A stretch of 11,269 nt of DNA from Oscillospiraceae bacterium. Its GTDB lineage: Bacteria; Bacillota; Clostridia; Oscillospirales; Ruminococcaceae. The stretch is taken from positions 1 to 11,269 of the forward strand of contig WQXP01000020.1 in the NCBI GenBank assembly GCA_009784765.1, written 5' to 3'. This document shows positions 3,484 to 11,269 of the stretch, piece by piece. Positions within the stretch are counted from its first letter, which is position 1. Every line of letters begins with the position of its first letter. The notes beneath the pieces were generated by a model. The model was not told the DNA's origin. It made no database searches and worked only from the letters and a program-made list of their open reading frames with translations. A program made the translations under genes and the position numbers.

Positions 3484-3537
3484 GCACGGCGTTTGCACCA
3501 AAATGAAACAAGATTTTTTAAGGGGAGGATTAAAGCT

Positions 3538-3798
3538 ATGTTGCAATCTCACGTGGGATATTTTAGCCGAAACGGCAGTTTTCTTTCAGACGGAAAAGTT
3601 ATTAAATTTACTCCCGAAAAAAAAGCAGTAGTCAGTGTGTTAGATGAACCTGCTGTGGAGTTGAAAATTATCTCGCCTAAAACAGCACAGGAGCGTTGGG
3701 AGGCAATGAAAAGCATTCGCGGCATTTGGAAAGACCACATTCAGTTAGAAGACGAGAAACTCCTAATTTCGGAAAGGCTGTGGAAAAAATATTTATGA
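3538..3798 (+). CDS. Small antitoxin-like protein (partner of a broken PIN toxin)
   Basis: An 86-residue protein beginning MLQSHVGYFSRNGSFLSDGK. This beta-rich opening, followed by a VVSVLDEPAVELK segment, resembles small clostridial antitoxins encoded just before PIN-domain toxins. The C-terminal half (TAQERWEAMKSIRGIW onward) would be the toxin-binding arm. The start is chosen from the AAGGGGAGG ribosome binding site at 3520-3528; an in-frame TTG start at 3493 has no such site. The stop overlaps the start of the PIN reading frame as ATGA (3795-3798), the classic coupling of antitoxin and toxin. Because the toxin frame is damaged, this may be an orphan antitoxin. Its role rests mainly on the neighbour and on N-terminal resemblance. 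Confidence 0.68.
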   Translation: MLQSHVGYFSRNGSFLSDGKVIKFTPEKKAVVSVLDEPAVELKIISPKTAQERWEAMKSIRGIWKDHIQLEDEKLLISERLWKKYL

Positions 3799-3987
3799 GG
3801 GTTTTAGTTGATGCCAATGTGGTTATAGATTTTCTTATGGAAAGAGAGCCTCATGCAGAACAGTCAAGCAAAATAATTGGAACGGCGAACACTCTTGTTA
3901 AAATTGTGTCGCGAAATCGAAGTTGTCAACTTAGATGAAATCAAAATCATCACAGAGTTTTTAGACATATTTTCTAAGGAGGACTGA
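3795..3987 (+). pseudogene. Decayed PIN-domain (VapC-like) toxin gene
   Basis: The frame starting at 3795 opens MRVLVDANVVIDFLMERE, the first strand and helix of a PIN ribonuclease with the first catalytic Asp (D6). After about 29 residues it runs into unrelated sequence and stops at 3938. From about 3877 a second frame reads RRTLLLKLCREIEVVNLDE, which fits the later part of a PIN domain (helix followed by the E-V-V strand), and continues to a TGA at 3985-3987. The simplest reading is an internal deletion of about 30 codons plus a frameshift; the distal acidic catalytic residues are also missing, so no active nuclease is expected. The ATG overlaps the antitoxin stop, and the last stop overlaps the Fic start, so translation coupling across the wreck may persist. 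PIN assignment of the N-terminal part is good; that of the second piece is tentative. Confidence 0.66.
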
Positions 3988-4718
3988 TGAAAACAAATCT
4001 TCTCGCGTTGTTACAGGAAGAAAGCGAAATGAAACTCAAGGGCGGATTGTATCATCAAACGCAGATTAAACTTGCGTTCAATTCCAATCGCATTGAGGGG
4101 TGCAAACTCTCGGAAGAGCAAACCCGCTATATCTTCGAAACAAACACGATTGGTATTTGTGAGAATGAGTCGGCGAATGTAGATGATATTATCGAAACAG
4201 TCAGTCATTTTATTTGCTTTGATTATATGCTCGCGACTGCTCATGAGGAGCTGTCCCAAAGGCACATCAAAGAGTATCATCGCTTGCTCAAGAGCAGCAC
4301 GACAGATTCGCGAAAAAAGGGGTTCAATGTCGGCGAGTATAAAAGCCGCCCTAATGCAGTCGGTGATACGCGAACGACTTCGCCCTCAAAGGTTATCGGC
4401 GAAATGACGAAACTACTCCGCGAATATAACGCGAAGGCTTCTGTTACCTTTGAAGAGATAATTGCTTTCCATCACAAGTTTGAATGTATTCACCCTTTTC
4501 AAGACGGTAACGGCAGAGTCGGGCGGATTATTATGTTCAGGGAATGCTTACGTAATGATATTACGCCTTTTATTGTCGGACACGAACACAAAATGTTTTA
4601 TTATCGCGGGTTGAAGGAATGGGGAAACGAGCGCGGTTTCCTGTTAGATACCTGCCTTTCGGCGCAAGACGCATATCAAAAACACGTTGATTATTTTTAT
4701 CCGCAACTAACCGACTAA
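3987..4718 (+). CDS. Fic-family AMP-transferase with N-terminal inhibitory motif
   Basis: A 243-residue Fic (filamentation induced by cAMP) domain protein, expected to transfer AMP from ATP to a hydroxyl side chain of a target protein. The catalytic loop is complete: HPFQDGNGRVGR at residues 169-180, with catalytic His169 and the acidic D173 position that orients metal. The N terminus holds an S-x-x-x-E-G inhibitory motif (S33 to G38, SNRIEG), so the glutamate finger E37 should auto-inhibit the enzyme; this is the arrangement of class II Fic proteins, which need no separate antitoxin. There is no signal peptide. The start is set by AAGGAGG at 3976-3982 and overlaps the preceding stop as TGATG. 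The target is unknown. Such proteins act in toxin-like, stress or housekeeping roles; its place next to an antitoxin-like gene makes an accessory origin plausible. Confidence 0.93.
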   Translation: MKTNLLALLQEESEMKLKGGLYHQTQIKLAFNSNRIEGCKLSEEQTRYIFETNTIGICENESANVDDIIETVSHFICFDYMLATAHEELSQRHIKEYHRLLKSSTTDSRKKGFNVGEYKSRPNAVGDTRTTSPSKVIGEMTKLLREYNAKASVTFEEIIAFHHKFECIHPFQDGNGRVGRIIMFRECLRNDITPFIVGHEHKMFYYRGLKEWGNERGFLLDTCLSAQDAYQKHVDYFYPQLTD

Positions 4719-4723
4719 AGAAT

Positions 4724-4760
4724 AACTGTCAACCGTCAATTGTCAACTGTCAATTGACAA
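4724..4760 (+). repeat. Heptameric repeat array between fic and hisB
   Basis: Five 7-bp units run head to tail: AACTGTC, AACCGTC, AATTGTC, AACTGTC and AATTGAC. The first four are in the opposite orientation to the arrays further along the his genes. The switch to the last unit creates a perfect 12-bp palindrome TGTCAATTGACA (4748-4759), able to form a short hairpin right before the hisB ribosome binding site. No factor-binding role is known to me. Confidence 0.85.
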
Positions 4761-4775
4761 GAAGGAGGACTAACC

Positions 4776-5360
4776 ATGTCAAGACAAGCAACAATCACGC
4801 GAAAGACGAGAGAAACAGACATTACAGCTTTCCTCAACCTCGACGAGAGCGGGGAGTGCAAAATCGCCACTGGAATCGGGTTTCTCGACCATATGCTCAG
4901 TGCCCTTGCGGTTCACGGAGGGTTTACTCTGCATCTCAAATGCGACGGCGACCTGAATGTGGATTGCCACCACACCACCGAAGATGTTGGTATAGTCGTG
5001 GGGCGTGCAATCAAAGAGGCTCTTACAGCATCGGCGACGCCTTTTATGCGGTATGGCTCGGCGCGAATTCCGATGGACGAAGCACTCGGGTGGTGCGATT
5101 TGGACATTAGCGGGCGTTCTTACTTGATGTTTGACGCGAAGTTCAAGCACGAGCGGTGCGGCGGAATGGACACGCAGATGGTGAAGGAGTTCATGCACTC
5201 TGTTGCCCTTAACGCAAAGATGACCCTTCATGTGGGGGCTTACGGAGATAACGACCATCACATGATTGAGGCTATGTTCAAGGCACTTGCCTATGCCCTC
5301 AAGGAAGCTGTGAGGGTTAATTCGGACGGCAAGGTTATTTCGACAAAGGGAGTACTGTAG
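4776..5360 (+). CDS. hisB: Imidazoleglycerol-phosphate dehydratase
   Basis: Catalyses the dehydration of imidazole glycerol phosphate to imidazole acetol phosphate, the sixth step of histidine synthesis, in the cytoplasm. The 194-residue protein is the monofunctional form, without the histidinol-phosphatase domain found in enterobacteria. Both manganese-binding histidine clusters are present: HHTTED at residues 65-70 and HHMIE at 161-165, along with the IGFLDHML segment near residue 35. The start follows AAGGAGG at 4762-4768, directly after a heptad repeat array. It is first of four his genes here and is followed by another repeat array and then hisA; the usual hisH between them is missing. 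Confidence 0.97.
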   Translation: MSRQATITRKTRETDITAFLNLDESGECKIATGIGFLDHMLSALAVHGGFTLHLKCDGDLNVDCHHTTEDVGIVVGRAIKEALTASATPFMRYGSARIPMDEALGWCDLDISGRSYLMFDAKFKHERCGGMDTQMVKEFMHSVALNAKMTLHVGAYGDNDHHMIEAMFKALAYALKEAVRVNSDGKVISTKGVL

Positions 5361-5362
5361 GC

Positions 5363-5394
5363 AATTGACAATTGACAGTTGACAGTGGACAGTT
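5363..5394 (+). repeat. Heptameric repeat array between hisB and hisA
   Basis: Four and a half 7-bp units (AATTGAC twice, AGTTGAC, AGTGGAC, then AGTT) begin two bases after the hisB stop. Orientation is opposite to most of the array before hisB. The array occupies the start of the 79-base gap where hisH would often lie. It contains several TTGACA hexamers that look like promoter -35 boxes, but I see no matching -10 box at the right distance. Confidence 0.88.
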
Positions 5395-5401
5395 ATTGTT
5401 A

Positions 5402-5439: not shown

Positions 5440-6171
5440 ATGATTATATTTCCTGCTATTGACATTAAAAACGGCAAGTGTGTTCGTTTAACGAAAGGCG
5501 ATTTTTCAACTGCAGAGAAAGTCGCTGATGATTACATGATTACCGCAAAGAGCTTTGCTCTCTACGGAGCGGAGTGGATTCATATGATTGACTTAGACGG
5601 TGCGAAATTCGCCAAACCCCGAAACGCTGACATTTTTCTTGATGTTGCGGCTAATACCGAGCTGAAAGTCCAAGTCGGCGGTGGGATTCGCACACTCGAA
5701 ACTGTCGAGAGCTATCTGAGCCGCGGCATTGCCCGCGTGATTCTCGGGAGCGTCGCTGTACAAAACCCCGGCTTAGTCAAAACTGCTGTGCGGGAATTTG
5801 GCTCAGAGCGGGTAGTCGTCGGTATTGACGCAAAGAACGGCATGGTCGCCACTAATGGTTGGTTGGAGACAAGCGAAGTCAACTTTATCTCTTTGGCTAA
5901 ACAAATGGGGCAAGCGGGAGTCCGCTATTTCATCTTTACCGACATTGATAAGGACGGAACGCTTTCTCGCCCTAATCATATCAAGACGCGGCAGTTGCAG
6001 ACGGAAGTCGCGGAGTTTGGGGGGAATGTAATCGCGTCGGGTGGGATTAAGACGATTAACAATATCAAGACCCTCAAGAAAAACGGTGTCTACGGCGCGA
6101 TTTGCGGGAAGTCGATTTACTGCGGTACGCTGAATTTGGCGGCGGCGATTAAGTTGACAATTGACAGTTAG
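5440..6171 (+). CDS. hisA: ProFAR isomerase (phosphoribosylformimino-AICAR-P isomerase)
   Basis: A (beta/alpha)8-barrel enzyme that opens the ribose ring of ProFAR to give PRFAR, the substrate of HisF. The 243-residue protein shows the two catalytic aspartates, D8 in FPAIDIKNGK and D130 in GIDAKNG, and the phosphate-binding VGGGIR and ASGGI loops of the HisA/HisF family. The ATG at 5440 matches the family start (MIIFPAIDI) and follows GAGGTG at 5430-5435; an in-frame GTG at 5428 would add four residues. The last five residues (239-243, LTIDS) and the stop are encoded by heptad repeat sequence. The gene is 32 bases before hisF. Confidence 0.97.
   Translation: MIIFPAIDIKNGKCVRLTKGDFSTAEKVADDYMITAKSFALYGAEWIHMIDLDGAKFAKPRNADIFLDVAANTELKVQVGGGIRTLETVESYLSRGIARVILGSVAVQNPGLVKTAVREFGSERVVVGIDAKNGMVATNGWLETSEVNFISLAKQMGQAGVRYFIFTDIDKDGTLSRPNHIKTRQLQTEVAEFGGNVIASGGIKTINNIKTLKKNGVYGAICGKSIYCGTLNLAAAIKLTIDS
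6152..6169 (+). repeat. Short heptameric repeat overlapping the hisA 3' end
   Basis: Units AGTTGAC and AATTGAC followed by AGTT lie within the final codons of hisA and supply the T of its TAG stop. This is the same repeat family and orientation as the arrays after hisB and in hisF. Confidence 0.8.
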
Positions 6172-6203: not shown

Positions 6204-6959
6204 ATGAAAAAAATAATTCCCTGTCTTGATATTCGCGACGGAAAAGTCGTGAAAGGGGTAAATTTTGAGGGTATCAGAGTTGTGGGCGACCCTGTTGAGA
6301 GGGCAAAGCTCTACAATGCGCAGGGGGCAGACGAGATTGTGCTGTATGACATCAGCGCGTCTGTTCAGAAGCGCATAATCGACCTTGAGTTAGTCGCGGC
6401 AGTTAAAGCGGTAATCGACGTGCCGCTGTCAGTCGCCGGGGGAATCGGGAATGTGGAAGACTTCGGCAAAGCACTCGCGGCGGGGGCAGACAAAGTTTCC
6501 CTGAACTCGTTAGCAATCCGTAATCCTGATATAATCTCGGAAGTCGCGGGCAAGTTCGGCTCGGCAAAAGTGGTTATTGGAATCGACGCGATGAAAGCCG
6601 GAGCTGCGTATCGTGTGATGTTGAACATGGGGAAAAGCGACGCAAATCTTGACTTGCTCGAGTGGGTGCGGCGCGTTACCGCTCTCGGGGCGGGGGAAAT
6701 CTGCCTGAACTCAATCGACGCGGACGGAACAAAAGCGGGATATGACACGGATATGCTCAGTGCAGTCTGCGCTGTTACTGCGCTGCCTGTAATCGCAAGC
6801 GGCGGCTGCGGGGAGTTAGCGCACTTCGCGGAGGTTTTCGCGAAAACTCCTGCGGCGGCGGCTCTTGCAGCGAGTGTTTTCCACATGGATATGCTGACTG
6901 TGGCTCAAATCAAGGAGTTTTTAACAGTTGACAATGGACAATGGACAATTGACAATTGA
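6204..6959 (+). CDS. hisF: Imidazole glycerol phosphate synthase, cyclase subunit
   Basis: With the glutaminase HisH, this barrel protein converts PRFAR plus ammonia to imidazole glycerol phosphate and AICAR. The 251-residue product carries the catalytic aspartates D9 (PCLDIRDGKVVKG) and D128 (GIDAM), plus the family phosphate-binding segments SVAGGIG and IASGGCG. A ribosome binding site (AAGGAGAAG, 6187-6195) precedes the ATG. HisF proteins usually end with a short positively charged tail; here residues 241-251 (TVDNGQWTIDN) are pure translation of a heptad repeat array, so the native C terminus has been replaced or extended. Its partner hisH is not in the window. HisF alone can use free ammonia, but poorly, so hisH is expected elsewhere in the genome. 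Confidence 0.96.
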   Translation: MKKIIPCLDIRDGKVVKGVNFEGIRVVGDPVERAKLYNAQGADEIVLYDISASVQKRIIDLELVAAVKAVIDVPLSVAGGIGNVEDFGKALAAGADKVSLNSLAIRNPDIISEVAGKFGSAKVVIGIDAMKAGAAYRVMLNMGKSDANLDLLEWVRRVTALGAGEICLNSIDADGTKAGYDTDMLSAVCAVTALPVIASGGCGELAHFAEVFAKTPAAAALAASVFHMDMLTVAQIKEFLTVDNGQWTIDN

Positions 6960-6964
6960 CAGTT
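6926..6964 (+). repeat. Heptameric repeat array forming the hisF 3' end
   Basis: Five and a half units: AGTTGAC, AATGGAC twice, AATTGAC twice, AGTT. The hisF frame reads 34 bases into the array and stops at the TGA (6957-6959) of the last full unit. The two units with TGG instead of TTG lack TGA, and the other earlier TGA falls out of frame, which is why translation continues this far. The hisI ribosome binding site begins five bases after the array. Confidence 0.9.
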
Positions 6965-6977
6965 ATGTAAAGGAGCA

Positions 6978-7381: not shown

Positions 7382-8572
7382 ATGCTACAACAACTCCGCG
7401 ACTTTTTCGCGAACAAACGTGTCCTGATTCTCGGCTTCGGGCTTGAAGGCAAGTCTACACTGAAACTCTTAGAACAGCTTGACTGCGGGGCGTCTGTGGA
7501 GGTTCGCGAAAAGTATCACTTTTCGGAGCTTCCTTTACCCGACGATTATGACATAATTATGAAATCACCGGGGATTCCGCTGTTTCAACAAAGGGGAAAA
7601 TTCGACCCGCGCATTACGGGACAGGCAGATTTGTTTCTGCGATTTTGTGAAAATCGCACAATCGGGATTACAGGGACAAAAGGTAAGTCTACCACTTCGA
7701 GTTTGATTCATCACATACTCTGCAAATGCGGGCGAAAATCGCGCCTTATAGGCAATATCGGTGTTCCGCCGTTAGACATTGTGTGGGATTTGGCACAAGA
7801 TTCGAAAAAGCACGAAATCATCGTGGCGGAGCTTTCTTGTCATCAGTTAGAATACTGCAAGGCAAGCCCGAATGTCGCCGTGTTCCTGAATTTGTTTGAG
7901 GAACACTTAGACCATTATATTGACTTTGCCCATTATCGCGCCGCTAAGGAGAATATCTTCAAATTCCAGGGCAAGTTTCAGCGCGAGGGCGACGTGCTTA
8001 TTCGCGGAGAGGACGTGGACGCTTCCGCTGTTGACAGCACAAAAGCACGCCTTCGCGGAGTGCATAATCTTCACAATATCGCCATTGGGGTGAGGGCGGC
8101 TGTGGCAGTCGGCGTTTTGGAGCCCGACGCACTCACAGCGGCTTATACCTTCAGCGGGCTTGAGCACAGGCTCGAGGCTTTTGAGGTCGGTGGTGTAACC
8201 TACGTCAATGACAGTATCAGCACAATTCCTGCGGCGGCGATTGCGGCAGTGGCGGCTTTCCCCGAATGCGATACGCTGATTATAGGCGGCATGGACAGAG
8301 GAATCGACTACAGCGAACTAATCGCATTTTTGAACAGCCGCACAGACATTTCTGTAATCGCGCTGCCTGATACGGGGCATAAAATCGCCGACGCTCTCGC
8401 TGCTCCGGCGACTGTACACAAATCTGCGAATCTGGAAGCCGCAGCCGCTCTTGCGCGGCGCATCACGAAACGCTGTTGTGTGCTTTCACCTGCGGCGGCG
8501 AGCTATGGGTTTTATACCAACTTTGAGGAGCGGGGGCGGCATTTCAAGGAGTTGGTGATTGAGAGGGCTTAG
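7382..8572 (+). CDS. murD: MurD-type UDP-MurNAc-L-alanine glutamate ligase
   Basis: A 396-residue cytoplasmic Mur ligase that would add glutamate to UDP-MurNAc-L-alanine in peptidoglycan precursor synthesis. It has the three Mur domains: an N-terminal Rossmann-like UDP-binding part (LILGFGLEGKST), central ATPase with P-loop GTKGKST (98-104), ELSCHQLE, the HLDHY block and carbamylation-candidate K189 in YRAAKENIF, and a C-terminal domain (FSGLEHRLE, LSPAAASYGFYTNFEERG). It is shorter than the usual 440-450. The canonical MurD motif NDSKATN is replaced by NDSISTIP (276-283), losing the lysine, and the usual LSPACAS reads LSPAAAS. These changes resemble what I recall of MurD2-like ligases that add L-glutamate; that subtype is only a hypothesis. 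Start from GAGGT at 7372-7376. A piece of its 3' part is duplicated downstream. Confidence 0.88.
   Translation: MLQQLRDFFANKRVLILGFGLEGKSTLKLLEQLDCGASVEVREKYHFSELPLPDDYDIIMKSPGIPLFQQRGKFDPRITGQADLFLRFCENRTIGITGTKGKSTTSSLIHHILCKCGRKSRLIGNIGVPPLDIVWDLAQDSKKHEIIVAELSCHQLEYCKASPNVAVFLNLFEEHLDHYIDFAHYRAAKENIFKFQGKFQREGDVLIRGEDVDASAVDSTKARLRGVHNLHNIAIGVRAAVAVGVLEPDALTAAYTFSGLEHRLEAFEVGGVTYVNDSISTIPAAAIAAVAAFPECDTLIIGGMDRGIDYSELIAFLNSRTDISVIALPDTGHKIADALAAPATVHKSANLEAAAALARRITKRCCVLSPAAASYGFYTNFEERGRHFKELVIERA
8337..8474 (+). repeat. murD segment duplicated downstream (copy 1 of a 138-bp direct repeat)
   Basis: This stretch inside murD, encoding the C-terminal-domain segment from RTDISVIALPDTG to ARRITKR, recurs at 10565-10702 with no gaps and only four mismatches that I counted by eye (about 97% identity). 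The two copies are 2,228 bases apart and bracket the M23 peptidase gene. Confidence 0.95.
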
Positions 8573-8589
8573 GCGGCAGAAGGAACGGC

Positions 8590-8649
8590 GGGGGCTTTGT
8601 GAAACTTGCACAACCCCCCCCTCCCCCTGAGAGGCTGTTCTTTGTGCAA
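8590..8649 (+). other. Competing inverted repeats between murD and the M23 gene
   Basis: GGGGG (8590-8594) and TTGTG (8597-8601) can pair with CACAA (8609-8613) and CCCCC (8614-8618) to form a hairpin with a 7-base loop, 17 bases after the murD stop. Alternatively TTGCACAA (8606-8613) pairs with TTGTGCAA (8642-8649). The two structures share bases and exclude each other. There is no T-tract after either, so this could be a factor-dependent end for murD or a repeat remnant. The rest of the 179-base gap holds only the peptidase promoter. Confidence 0.4.
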
Positions 8650-8681
8650 ATCGCCGAATTTCAAAAATTTTGCGAAAAGCC

Positions 8682-8710
8682 TTGACATTCGCAAAAGTTT
8701 AGCATATAAT
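8682..8710 (+). promoter_or_regulatory. Perfect-consensus sigma-A promoter for the M23 peptidase gene
   Basis: TTGACA at 8682-8687 and TATAAT at 8705-8710 are separated by exactly 17 bases, an exact match to the vegetative sigma-70/sigma-A consensus. Transcription would start near 8717 and give a short leader before the AAGGGGGG ribosome binding site at 8735-8742. It shows that the gene is transcribed independently of murD. Confidence 0.88.
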
Positions 8711-8751
8711 AGATATATCAAGTAAATTAACAGTAAGGGGGGAAACAAATC

Positions 8752-10509
8752 ATGAAAAAGAGGATAATATCGGCAATTCTCGCGGGGGCAATGTTCACCA
8801 CAATGCTTATGTTCACGGGGGCGACGGAGCGGGATGCAAATCCAAACGACAACGGCTTTGCATTTATGCAAGACGACCACCACGTTACAAGCGATTTTTT
8901 TGAACTCGCTTATCGCGCTTCTACGGTAGAAGATGTAATTAAGAACGTAGAGCAACATGAGAGTGTCAACGATGTACAGGTTTTCAAAAACTTTTCTGAC
9001 CCGGACTCCAGAGGCGAGGTGCAGATTTTCGACGGTTTAATTGTACAGGAAATGTTTGTTCGGGTTTTTTATGATGATATATCAATGGTTGAGTTTTTTC
9101 TTTTAGAAGCCCCCCACGTTACTGCCGAGTTTTTTGATATAGCATATAGTGTTAAAACTGTTGAAGAGTTCATTCAAAAAATTAGGCGTCATGGCCGTGT
9201 CAACGATGTGCAAATTTTCGCTGATTCGTCTGAGCGCGGCGCTCAAATCTATGAAGGCAAAACCTCTCATGGAATGCTTATACGTGTATTTTATGATGAT
9301 GTTTCGTGTGTCGATTTTGAGTTCCCCGAAGAAAACATGATACGGAACTCACAAGGGAATGCAAATCATGGTTTTATTTTGCCGTTGGACGGCATGAATT
9401 TAAGTTCACATATAACTTGCTTTTTCGATTGCCATAATGAGAGTACGAATTGGCTTTGTCCGAGGTGTAGCAGATGGTGGCGTAGTAATAGACCTCACAA
9501 AGGGATTGATGTGAGTTTTAGCAATGTCGTAGGAAGACCGGTCAGAGCAGTGCGTTCCGGTAACATAAGAGTTAGATGGTTGAACGACGCCGGTGTGGGT
9601 AACGCTGTGGCAATAGCGCATTCCAATGGCTTGACAACAATGTATGCGCATATGCAAAATGCGCCACCTTCCGGGGCGGTTAATCAAGGTGCGGTTATCG
9701 GAACTGTTGGTAGTACGGGAGCGGTTACAGGAGTACATTTGCATTTTGAGGTGAGAATTGGAAACCCTGCAAACGCAACTCAGTTTTGGGCACTAACAGC
9801 TCGTAATCCTATTGACTACTTGACGAACGCCCCCACATTCGACAACCACGGAGCTTTCAAAATCCGCAACTTCGGCAACGGGCGTTATTTGCACAGAGTC
9901 AACAATAACATAGGCAGCACGGTTGAAGCACGTGCAAGTAGTACCTCAGAAGCACAAAACTGGATTGTCAACAGGGTTACGGGAAACACACAATTTCAAA
10001 TTCGCGGGTTTGCGCCGATTAACACAACGAATGGGATTGGAATGATAACGGGGACGTCAATCGCAGGCAACCAAGCAACTATGATTTTGGGTACCTCTAA
10101 TATTCCGACTGCTGATACGACAATCACTGTTGAATCTAATGTTGCAGACGGCACGGTAAGATTTCGGCGCGGTTCACTTACTCTTGGGGTTGACTCAAAC
10201 AACAATGTGGTTTGGCAGACCAACAACGCAAGCGCGAACGCACAAAAATGGGTTCTTGAACCTCACGCCCTGAATGACAGCCGCGGAGATGTGGATGGTA
10301 ACGGGAGCGCGCAAGTGGCGGATTCTAATTTGATTTCTAATTTTGTAGTTAATCCTGCAATATTAACGCCGCAACAAATTTTCAAAGCCGATGTAAATCG
10401 CGACGGTAGAGTAACCATTGATGACTCCCTTCAAATTTCGCGCTTTATTATCGGGCTTCCCAATTGCTTCGAGCGTACTTGCGTGAATTGCAATCAGTGC
10501 TTCAAGTAA
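8752..10509 (+). CDS. Secreted M23 peptidase with tandem N-terminal module, ricin-like lectin and dockerin
   Basis: A 585-residue modular exported protein. In order: signal peptide (1 to about 24, KKR then a hydrophobic stretch); two copies of an unrecognised module of about 75 residues (44-121 and 122-196) sharing VTxxFF, the VNDVQ core and RVFYDD; a cysteine-rich lead-in (CFFDCHNE, CPRC); an M23 metallopeptidase domain with H249/D253 (PHKGID) and HLH at 329-331, which bind and activate zinc; a beta-trefoil ricin-type lectin (about 364-508, with AQNW at W404 and AQKW at W500); and a type I dockerin (about 511-572) with two calcium loops, DVDGNGSAQVAD and DVNRDGRVTIDD, positions 1, 3, 5 and 12 all intact. 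It probably cuts peptidoglycan or peptide cross-links outside the cell, docked to a cohesin scaffold. No cohesin gene is in view. Own promoter and terminator. Confidence 0.93.
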   Translation: MKKRIISAILAGAMFTTMLMFTGATERDANPNDNGFAFMQDDHHVTSDFFELAYRASTVEDVIKNVEQHESVNDVQVFKNFSDPDSRGEVQIFDGLIVQEMFVRVFYDDISMVEFFLLEAPHVTAEFFDIAYSVKTVEEFIQKIRRHGRVNDVQIFADSSERGAQIYEGKTSHGMLIRVFYDDVSCVDFEFPEENMIRNSQGNANHGFILPLDGMNLSSHITCFFDCHNESTNWLCPRCSRWWRSNRPHKGIDVSFSNVVGRPVRAVRSGNIRVRWLNDAGVGNAVAIAHSNGLTTMYAHMQNAPPSGAVNQGAVIGTVGSTGAVTGVHLHFEVRIGNPANATQFWALTARNPIDYLTNAPTFDNHGAFKIRNFGNGRYLHRVNNNIGSTVEARASSTSEAQNWIVNRVTGNTQFQIRGFAPINTTNGIGMITGTSIAGNQATMILGTSNIPTADTTITVESNVADGTVRFRRGSLTLGVDSNNNVVWQTNNASANAQKWVLEPHALNDSRGDVDGNGSAQVADSNLISNFVVNPAILTPQQIFKADVNRDGRVTIDDSLQISRFIIGLPNCFERTCVNCNQCFK

Positions 10510-10530
10510 AGCTTAAGAAGAGATAAACCC

Positions 10531-10564
10531 AACAAAACCGCTCGTAAAAGAGCGGTTTTGTTTT
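10531..10564 (+). terminator. Strong intrinsic terminator after the M23 gene
   Basis: A perfect 13-bp stem (AACAAAACCGCTC with GAGCGGTTTTGTT) around a six-base GTAAAA loop, ending in a T-rich run. It starts 21 bases after the peptidase stop. The A-rich 5' arm would also allow termination on the opposite strand. The murD fragment begins at the very next base. Confidence 0.93.
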
Positions 10565-10702
10565 GCCGCACAGACATTTCTGTAATCGCGCTGCCTGATA
10601 CGGGGCATAAAATCGCCGACGCTCTCGCTGCTCCGGCGACTGTACACAAATCTGCGGACATGGAAGCCGCAGCCGCTCTTGCGCGGCGCATCACAAAACG
10701 CT
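10565..10702 (+). pseudogene. Internal fragment of murD (copy 2 of the 138-bp direct repeat)
   Basis: Gap-free copy of murD 8337-8474, still open in the murD frame (RTDISVIALPDTGHKIADAL at its start). Four mismatches: three alter two adjacent codons (Asn-Leu to Asp-Met) and one is silent in a threonine codon. It lacks the start, the ATPase domain and the final LSPAAASYGF...ERG motif, so it cannot encode a ligase. It abuts the terminator on the left. On the right, similarity to murD fades at about 10703, though a few weakly matching bases follow if one base is inserted. Confidence 0.93.
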
Positions 10703-10706
10703 TATT

Positions 10707-11093
10707 ATGTCCCTCGGGGGTTGTGTCTTTGTGGGGTTTCAGTCGCCTCCTCCTCCGCCGATTGTCGGCAGCGGCGAGATTCGGCAGTTTATGTACGACA
10801 TCAGCGATTTGAACGGGGTTGAAATGCTTTACATCTACGTTCACGGCGATTTTTTCGTCGCCATTGAGCGAAACCCGGACATTGAGTGGTTTTCCATGCA
10901 AATCGACACGCCTTTAAGCCTTGAGCGGCGTCTGAGCGTATACCCCTCTCTGTCGGACGATGACACCACCGGGTATCTCGAAGTTTTCGGGGGTTCCGTC
11001 GGTGCAAGGCTGCGAAACGCCGACGGCTCTCTTTTAGAGCTGATAATCAGGATTCCCGAGGGCGTGGAGTATCATACGCATTTCATCGGATAA
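10707..11093 (+). CDS. Orphan 128-codon frame, probably a 5'-truncated gene
   Basis: I do not recognise this protein. From about residue 13 it reads like genuine coding sequence: a PPPPP linker, then a beta-rich, acidic domain of about 110 residues (EIRQFMYDISDLNG, LYIYVHGDFFVAIERN, LEVFGGSVGARLRNADG, LLELIIRIPEG) ending HTHFIG. The first codons arise where the murD fragment ends. No ribosome binding site precedes the ATG at 10707, and a GTG at 10731 has only a weak GGGGG upstream. The proline run suggests the C-terminal domain of a larger, perhaps exported, protein whose front was replaced by the murD fragment. It could be silent because a strong terminator lies upstream and no promoter is evident. 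A terminator follows 27 bases after the stop. Confidence 0.5.
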   Translation: MSLGGCVFVGFQSPPPPPIVGSGEIRQFMYDISDLNGVEMLYIYVHGDFFVAIERNPDIEWFSMQIDTPLSLERRLSVYPSLSDDDTTGYLEVFGGSVGARLRNADGSLLELIIRIPEGVEYHTHFIG

Positions 11094-11102
11094 GCAATTG
11101 AC
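11094..11102 (+). repeat. Solitary heptad repeat unit
   Basis: GCAATTGAC directly follows the stop of the orphan frame, exactly as GCAATTGAC follows the hisB stop. It is a single unit of the family that forms arrays in the his operon; at nine bases chance cannot be excluded. Confidence 0.4.
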
Positions 11103-11120
11103 CCCTCTGCGTACCATAAC

Positions 11121-11150
11121 AAAAACCCGCTTCACAAGAGCGGGTTTTTT
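11121..11150. terminator. Bidirectional intrinsic terminator between the orphan frame and rsmG
   Basis: AAAAACCCGC (11121-11130) pairs with GCGGGTTTTT (11140-11149), with one further T-A pair and a short loop. There is a T run at the 3' end on both strands, so it can stop transcription from either side. The rsmG stop codon (TCA on +, 11132-11134) lies in the loop. Confidence 0.9.
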
Positions 11151-11269
11151 ACTATATTCGTTCTTTTTCGCGGATACTGCGCCGAAGTTTGGCGAACCTT
11201 GCGAACAACGACCAAATTCCGCTTGTCGCCGCTCGGGAGGGCATACTCATGCACCGCCTCAAGCCGCCC
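11132..11269 (-). CDS. rsmG: 16S rRNA (guanine-N7) methyltransferase RsmG, C-terminal end only
   Basis: Read on the - strand, the last 138 bases encode 45 residues and a stop. The text HEYALPSGDKRNLVVVRKVR followed by QTSAQYPRK and ending KNPLL matches the C-terminal tail of Gram-positive RsmG (GidB): a leucine-proline turn, an R-x-L-V-V strand with K, then T-x-x-x-YPR and K-x-PL. RsmG makes m7G at position 527 of 16S rRNA; its loss gives low-level streptomycin resistance. The S-adenosylmethionine-binding part lies beyond the window. The gene converges on the + strand genes, and its stop codon lies within the loop of the shared terminator. Identification rests on a short tail, so it is good but not certain. 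Confidence 0.82.
   Translation of the reverse strand, partial: GRLEAVHEYALPSGDKRNLVVVRKVRQTSAQYPRKRTNIVKNPLL

Follow-up and report, generated by a model that had tools for sequence, protein, structure and literature searches.

A murD fragment beyond an M23 peptidase–dockerin gene as the probable trace of a duplicative rearrangement in an Oscillospiraceae genome

In homology-facilitated illegitimate recombination, which De Vries and Wackernagel reportedly described in 2002, incoming DNA is said to be anchored by homology on one side and joined without it on the other. Merodiploids of Streptococcus pneumoniae that arise by transformation carry duplications of about 100–900 kb between repeats, as set out in a passage of PMC3784515. 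For Ruminococcus flavefaciens, passages of two papers describe dockerin-containing proteins, one of them peptidase-like (PMC2930009, PMC3573020), and in the passage of PMC3573020 the peptidase-like module resembles papain-like cysteine peptidases. Here we analysed an 11,269-nucleotide stretch of DNA from an Oscillospiraceae bacterium (WQXP01000020.1, assembly GCA_009784765.1; hereafter the window), which is the whole of contig C20 in a metagenome-assembled genome (MAG) of 219 contigs and 1,327,460 bases that is 61% complete. An internal piece of the window's murD gene recurs, as a direct repeat, on the far side of a gene for an M23 peptidase with a dockerin. This protein is like those of R. 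flavefaciens in that dockerin-bearing proteins, a peptidase-like one included, occur there, but the peptidase is papain-like there and of the M23 family here.

The two copies of the repeat align over 138 bp in the same orientation, gap-free and with four mismatches (97.1% identity), at a spacing of 2228 bases; a first-pass annotation of the window had put the identity at about 97% by eye, at the same distance, and the alignment bears it out. BLAST gives the pair an E value of 4.8e-61, which excludes chance. The opening 92 bp are identical, and the exact-match runs along the repeat measure 92, 1, 0, 34 and 7 bases. Counted in the left copy, the mismatches lie at 8429, 8431, 8432 and 8467 and hit three murD codons, turning N350 into D and L351 into M and leaving T362 silently changed. 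Similarity ends abruptly on both sides. To the left, the copies share only TTTTG, four mismatches away from the join; to the right, the best local alignment comprises 11 matching bases with one gap, a result equalled or beaten by 23% of 500 shuffles, and by this comparison no murD sequence past 10702 rises above chance. The murD piece is present at these two places only in the 1,327,460 bases of the MAG. As to a role for the fragment, it lies in the same sense as murD and hence is not antisense, the fold of both copies is ordinary (z −0.94 for the right, −0.04 for the left), and an Rfam search of the window gave no match at E up to 0.5.

The three clustered differences bear on which copy has changed. 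At these positions the fragment reads GACATG, the state of a related murD locus (L023) and of G003, the nearest of the related genomes examined, and murD of the window reads AATCTG. Of 135 positions compared with L023, 85 agree in the fragment and 83 in murD, a small margin. Residue 350 is aspartate in 11 of 13 aligned relatives, and residue 351 is M in seven of them and L in six. From this comparison murD, or an incoming murD allele, looks like the changed copy, and the scrap like the older allele, unless the present murD end came from another allele; its GACATG state would fit a copy made before the change in murD, or a murD end taken from another allele. The proposal of the first-pass annotation that the copy derives from a diverged but functional murD is thus mildly supported. 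The scrap has decayed little, which points to a fairly recent event.

Our favoured explanation, held with moderate confidence, regards the right copy as a murD remnant without function, produced by duplicative illegitimate recombination at a rearranged spot of this lineage's chromosome. The sequence just 3′ of the peptidase terminator would have been joined to the murD interior at 8337, either by tandem duplication of a 2.2-kb segment comprising the murD end and the peptidase gene, or through incoming DNA that used its homology to murD as an anchor at one end alone. Of the second copy, everything from murD position 8475 onwards would subsequently have been lost, in a deletion that reached into the 5′ end of the following gene, so that 138 bp of murD now adjoin a truncated open reading frame (ORF) that faces rsmG. 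The one-sided insertion gives the same structure, and it would also explain why the copies are 97% and not 100% identical. Homology-facilitated illegitimate recombination, with murD as the one-sided anchor, would account for such a 97% copy and is here a candidate process only. The S. pneumoniae merodiploids are alike in that part of the chromosome stands in direct order beside an intact copy, through unequal joining, but here the segment is at most 2.2 kb, no long repeat lies at the join and 138 bp are left. The sequences show the repeat with its sharp ends, its uniqueness in this MAG, an intact murD and a block not seen in the relatives compared; the kind and order of these events, and the truncation of the ORF, we infer. 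With that reservation, the tandem duplication with later deletion, or insertion scar, that had been proposed on first inspection stands as the best reading.

Table 1 Features at and around the two copies of the murD repeat (positions in the window).
Feature	Position	Strand	Remark
Left copy of direct repeat	8337..8474	+	inside murD, whole codons 320-364
Right copy of direct repeat	10565..10702	+	murD fragment without the gene's end
murD, 396 aa, intact	7382..8572	+	above NCBIfam TIGR01087 cut-off
Dispersed upstream module: inverted repeat and promoter region	8596..8743	+	similar copies elsewhere in the genome
Sigma70-type promoter	8682..8710	+	TTGACA-17-TATAAT, 12/12 consensus bases
M23 peptidase, RicinB-like stretch and type I dockerin, 585 aa	8752..10509	+	Pfam
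Terminator-like hairpin 3′ of peptidase gene, 13 pairs	10531..10562	+	scan lists minus strand
ORF 10707, 128 aa	10707..11093	+	coding-like codon use
rsmG 3′ end, 45 aa, cut by contig end	11132..11269	-	82% to RsmG of G003

The main rival is that the arrangement of the contig exists in no single cell, because the 92 exactly repeated base pairs led a short-read assembler along a wrong path or because two strains were merged. The fragmented and incomplete state of the MAG speaks for such an artefact or strain mixture, as do other contigs that break in repeats (the promoter module described below contains the end of C6 and the start of C23) and the identity of the opening 92 bp. We judge it unlikely, while allowing it a real chance, because the right copy carries four differences of its own, and because neither its left flank, the peptidase gene, nor its right flank is duplicated in the genome; the copy should therefore represent DNA of its own. 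Threaded the other way, the reads would, moreover, yield a truncated murD and a separate circle, an arrangement improbable in a living strain.

Sharp ends on both sides, the shared orientation, a nearby source and an apparently truncated neighbour would also suit a one-step event without a complete tandem duplication: a deletion or rearrangement would have brought the peptidase hairpin region up to the following gene, and template switching to murD, at a distance of 2.2 kb, would have supplied a filler of 138 bp. Nothing here tells this from the two-step model, but 138 bp seems long for a filler, and we regard the one-step event as rather improbable.

The copies enclose the murD 3′ end and the M23/RicinB-like/dockerin gene. 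The product of this gene scores 76.1 bits against Peptidase_M23 in Pfam (cut-off 28.7) and 29.7 bits against Dockerin_1, PF00404 (cut-off 22.9), by which its dockerin is of type I, and its RicinB-like stretch scores just under the Pfam cut-off. By eye it starts like a signal peptide, and it contains HKGID at 249 and HLH at 329, which fit HxxxD and HxH and which we take to be the usual M23 zinc-ligand motifs. Among the matches listed for 40 other genomes there is no full-length relative (best E 6e-18, for the M23 domain only), and patterns drawn from its peptides match nothing in viral contigs. Its N-terminal region (8863–9330 of the window) consists of two repeats, 44% identical over 82 residues, of a domain that has no name and measures about 80 residues.

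The first-pass annotation had given the peptidase gene a perfect promoter and terminator of its own. The promoter is confirmed at every consensus base, in a scan that returned 8 promoter-like sites against 4.1 expected. A hairpin is also present, stopping two bases short of the right copy, and is terminator-like on the minus strand only: the terminator scan (2 sites found, 3.3 expected) lists it there alone, and as read on the plus strand the stem and the U-run UUUUGUUUU overlap. The hairpin folds well (z −4.8). With this promoter and hairpin, the peptidase gene needs neither copy of the repeat.

Direct repeats on either side of a block that has a promoter and hairpin of its own might be those of a mobile element with a target-site duplication, or of site-specific integration into murD. 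We find this very unlikely: the left copy runs on into the rest of murD and not into an element, 138 bp is far above the usual size of a target duplication, and the M23 peptide patterns gave the negative result in viral contigs reported above. No recombinase is recognised among the ORFs of 8573–11269, where family scans covered only the M23 gene and ORF 10707, the two ORFs of note in 8573–11131. We also rejected a Campbell-type integration in which a circle brought in nothing but the fragment, as the rest of murD follows the left copy and not the right.

To the right of the fragment, ORF 10707 has good coding signal in its own frame, beginning at about 10785, and shows no evident ribosome-binding site at the junction. 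No relative of it was found in Pfam, NCBIfam, PHROGs, phages, plasmids or any of the 40 other genomes, and it probably represents the 3′ portion of a gene that was truncated at the junction. The G003 protein with which the partial rsmG product shares 82% identity, over 45 aa, itself scores above the NCBIfam RsmG cut-off.

We compared the locus with 80 related murD loci, which extend at most 6 kb past murD and in some cases just a few hundred bases. Within that reach, a second, overlapping murD match occurs in none of the 80 loci, as expected of relatives in which no such duplication took place. The closest relatives are MAGs labelled Oscillospiraceae, with isolate codes that we assume to indicate termite guts. 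The names rsmG, mnmG, aspS, hisB, hisA, hisI, groEL and ftsZ rest on scores above NCBIfam cut-offs; hisF, with 286.0 bits, narrowly misses its cut-off of 294.55, and a cysteine desulfurase family gene, with 367, that of 377. The order aspS-hisB-hisA-hisF-hisI-murD is common to the window and G003, whose murD locus agrees with L023 in its match to the window; upstream of murD, hisF and hisI are found in L023 and L025 and hisI in L024. Past murD, each of the three nearest relatives has a different gene. In G003, rsmG stands on a separate contig between mnmG and parB. The genome studied here has rsmG on C20 only and parB on C10, not adjoining it, and in G085 other genes lie 3′ of rsmG by eye, so the rsmG–parB arrangement is not universal. 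Neither rsmG nor parB was found in the 80 murD loci, as far as each reaches. From gene order, the stretch between the murD end and rsmG looks lineage-specific.

The surroundings of murD and the his genes offer further observations. At 3493–4718 of the window, two small ORFs and a Fic-domain gene stand between aspS and hisB, which are 27 bases apart in G003, and the block is not common to the two. Arrays of TTGACAATTGACA-like short repeats, in both orientations, lie near the his genes at 4713–4760, 5354–5400, 6152–6169 and 6910–6966. In nine of the 80 related loci (L026, L029, L033, L034, L036, L040, L041, L044 and L045; four labelled Ruminiclostridium and five uncultured Clostridia) a terminase large subunit gene comes just after murD, preceded by a small gene that is terminase small subunit-like by eye and has no PHROG match. 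L045 also has a portal gene beside the terminase genes, which are perhaps a kept prophage remnant.

Several points weigh against duplicative recombination as the explanation. The nearest genome compared has a MurD only 71% identical, too distant for the event to be dated or its steps ordered. Neither a complete tandem duplication nor the locus without the fragment was found in the relatives examined, and some of their loci end soon after murD. In any case the relatives vary in gene order past murD and around rsmG, so either arrangement may be the older. At the novel join, a check for microhomology found TTTTG four bases to the left and nothing clear directly at the left junction, and the missing 5′ part of ORF 10707 obscures the right join. 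Finally, in so fragmented a MAG a fault of assembly may be responsible.

How common such fragments are was gauged from repeat scans. In 31 other stretches of the same genome (416,564 bp, about a third of it), repeats of at least 60 bp and 85% identity, not all of them checked for coding content, gave 12 rows: close or overlapping tandem repeats, dispersed repeats, some of them inverted, and, on C63, the promoter module. The list also has a 115-bp repeat on C31, which covers the promoter and the opening codons of two small genes that are similar and adjacent. No displaced piece of a housekeeping gene was recognised in these 31 stretches. The 80 related loci (868,695 bp) gave six listed rows at thresholds of 60 bp and 90%, and no row overlaps murD. 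Literature search listings held no publication on this locus. A second dispersed repeat of about 55–80 bp occurs in the MAG in many copies and both orientations (L125 6239–6304, L122 3112–3195, L131 6745–6810); its L125 copy lies at the parB 3′ end.

The first-pass annotation had also predicted that recombination between the copies would strip murD of a conserved end, and that the peptidase cassette would be kept by addiction-like retention. The first prediction is upheld by the sequence. In frame 1, the crossover product would have the last 32 MurD residues swapped for an unrelated 36-residue tail, and would lose LSPAAAS and NFEERG, both present in 13 of 13 aligned relatives (YGFY between them differs at one residue in two of the 13). 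A retention device selected because loss of the cassette is lethal does not follow from this, and we give it almost no credence. The hazard exists through the repeat alone; deletions with other ends still remove the peptidase gene, and repeat-mediated loss is the only route predicted to break murD. The repeat thus adds a lethal route and blocks no harmless one, and the peptidase gene gains nothing by it. The case is moreover single, with nothing comparable recognised in the 416,564 bp of the genome's own contigs or in the 80 relatives.

The gap between murD and the peptidase gene contains a dispersed module (Table 1), with an inverted repeat, TTGCACAA-28-TTGTGCAA, at 8606–8649. Copies 80–86% similar lie on C63 (4744 and 5898), C9 (15208), C31 (8510), C56 (720–807) and C6 (18994); C23 has the promoter half (4–69, 81%) and C156 a weaker piece. 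The core of the inverted repeat occurs seven times in the genome with spacers of 21–28, and a TTGAC −35 box stands 33 bases past it in the five other copies with sequence beyond, and 32 bases past it in the window. A pattern search for the inverted repeat hit one of 71 genus genomes, this one, with nine hits and none in the control; seven of the nine have a common interior, and two (C10, C151) lack it. Searched as DNA, the murD–peptidase gap gave short, weak matches in other genomes, the best being 60 bases at 80% in G021.

Signal-peptide-like starts, judged by eye, lie 3′ of the module in no fewer than four of the seven copies (window, both on C63, and C9), and also at the C23 half copy. The C31 copy has a lipoprotein-like ORF further on, and the C6 copy is at a contig end. 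On C63, the two module copies (118 bp, 92%, 1154 apart) bracket one signal-peptide-like gene. Six proteins at module sites, five of them downstream of the module, had no Pfam match at E up to 0.001. Upstream neighbours of the modules are murD, ftsZ, the cysteine desulfurase family gene and, with one gene between, groEL. C9 and C31 (L124 15374–15700, L147 near 8670) have module, promoter and gene start in common. On C23 (L149 162–833), a signal peptide beginning MKQRRFKRL, as in C9, is followed by another protein, and the promoter half is like that of the window. From these comparisons it looks as if promoters and signal peptides have been mixed and reused.

The peptidase gene might then be one of a set of secreted-protein cassettes with a lineage-specific promoter module, moved or copied beside or near housekeeping genes, with the murD scrap as an insertion scar; we offer this as a speculation, and a doubtful one. 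The repeat itself is of little weight: it is the mark of a recombination breakpoint and illustrates how genes come to be copied in part, and it cautions that a repeat bracketing a gene need not be a retention device. The promoter module is a side finding with more promise. If the cassette idea is true, it would mean that co-regulated secreted-protein genes under one promoter type spread without a transposon in this Oscillospiraceae-like lineage.

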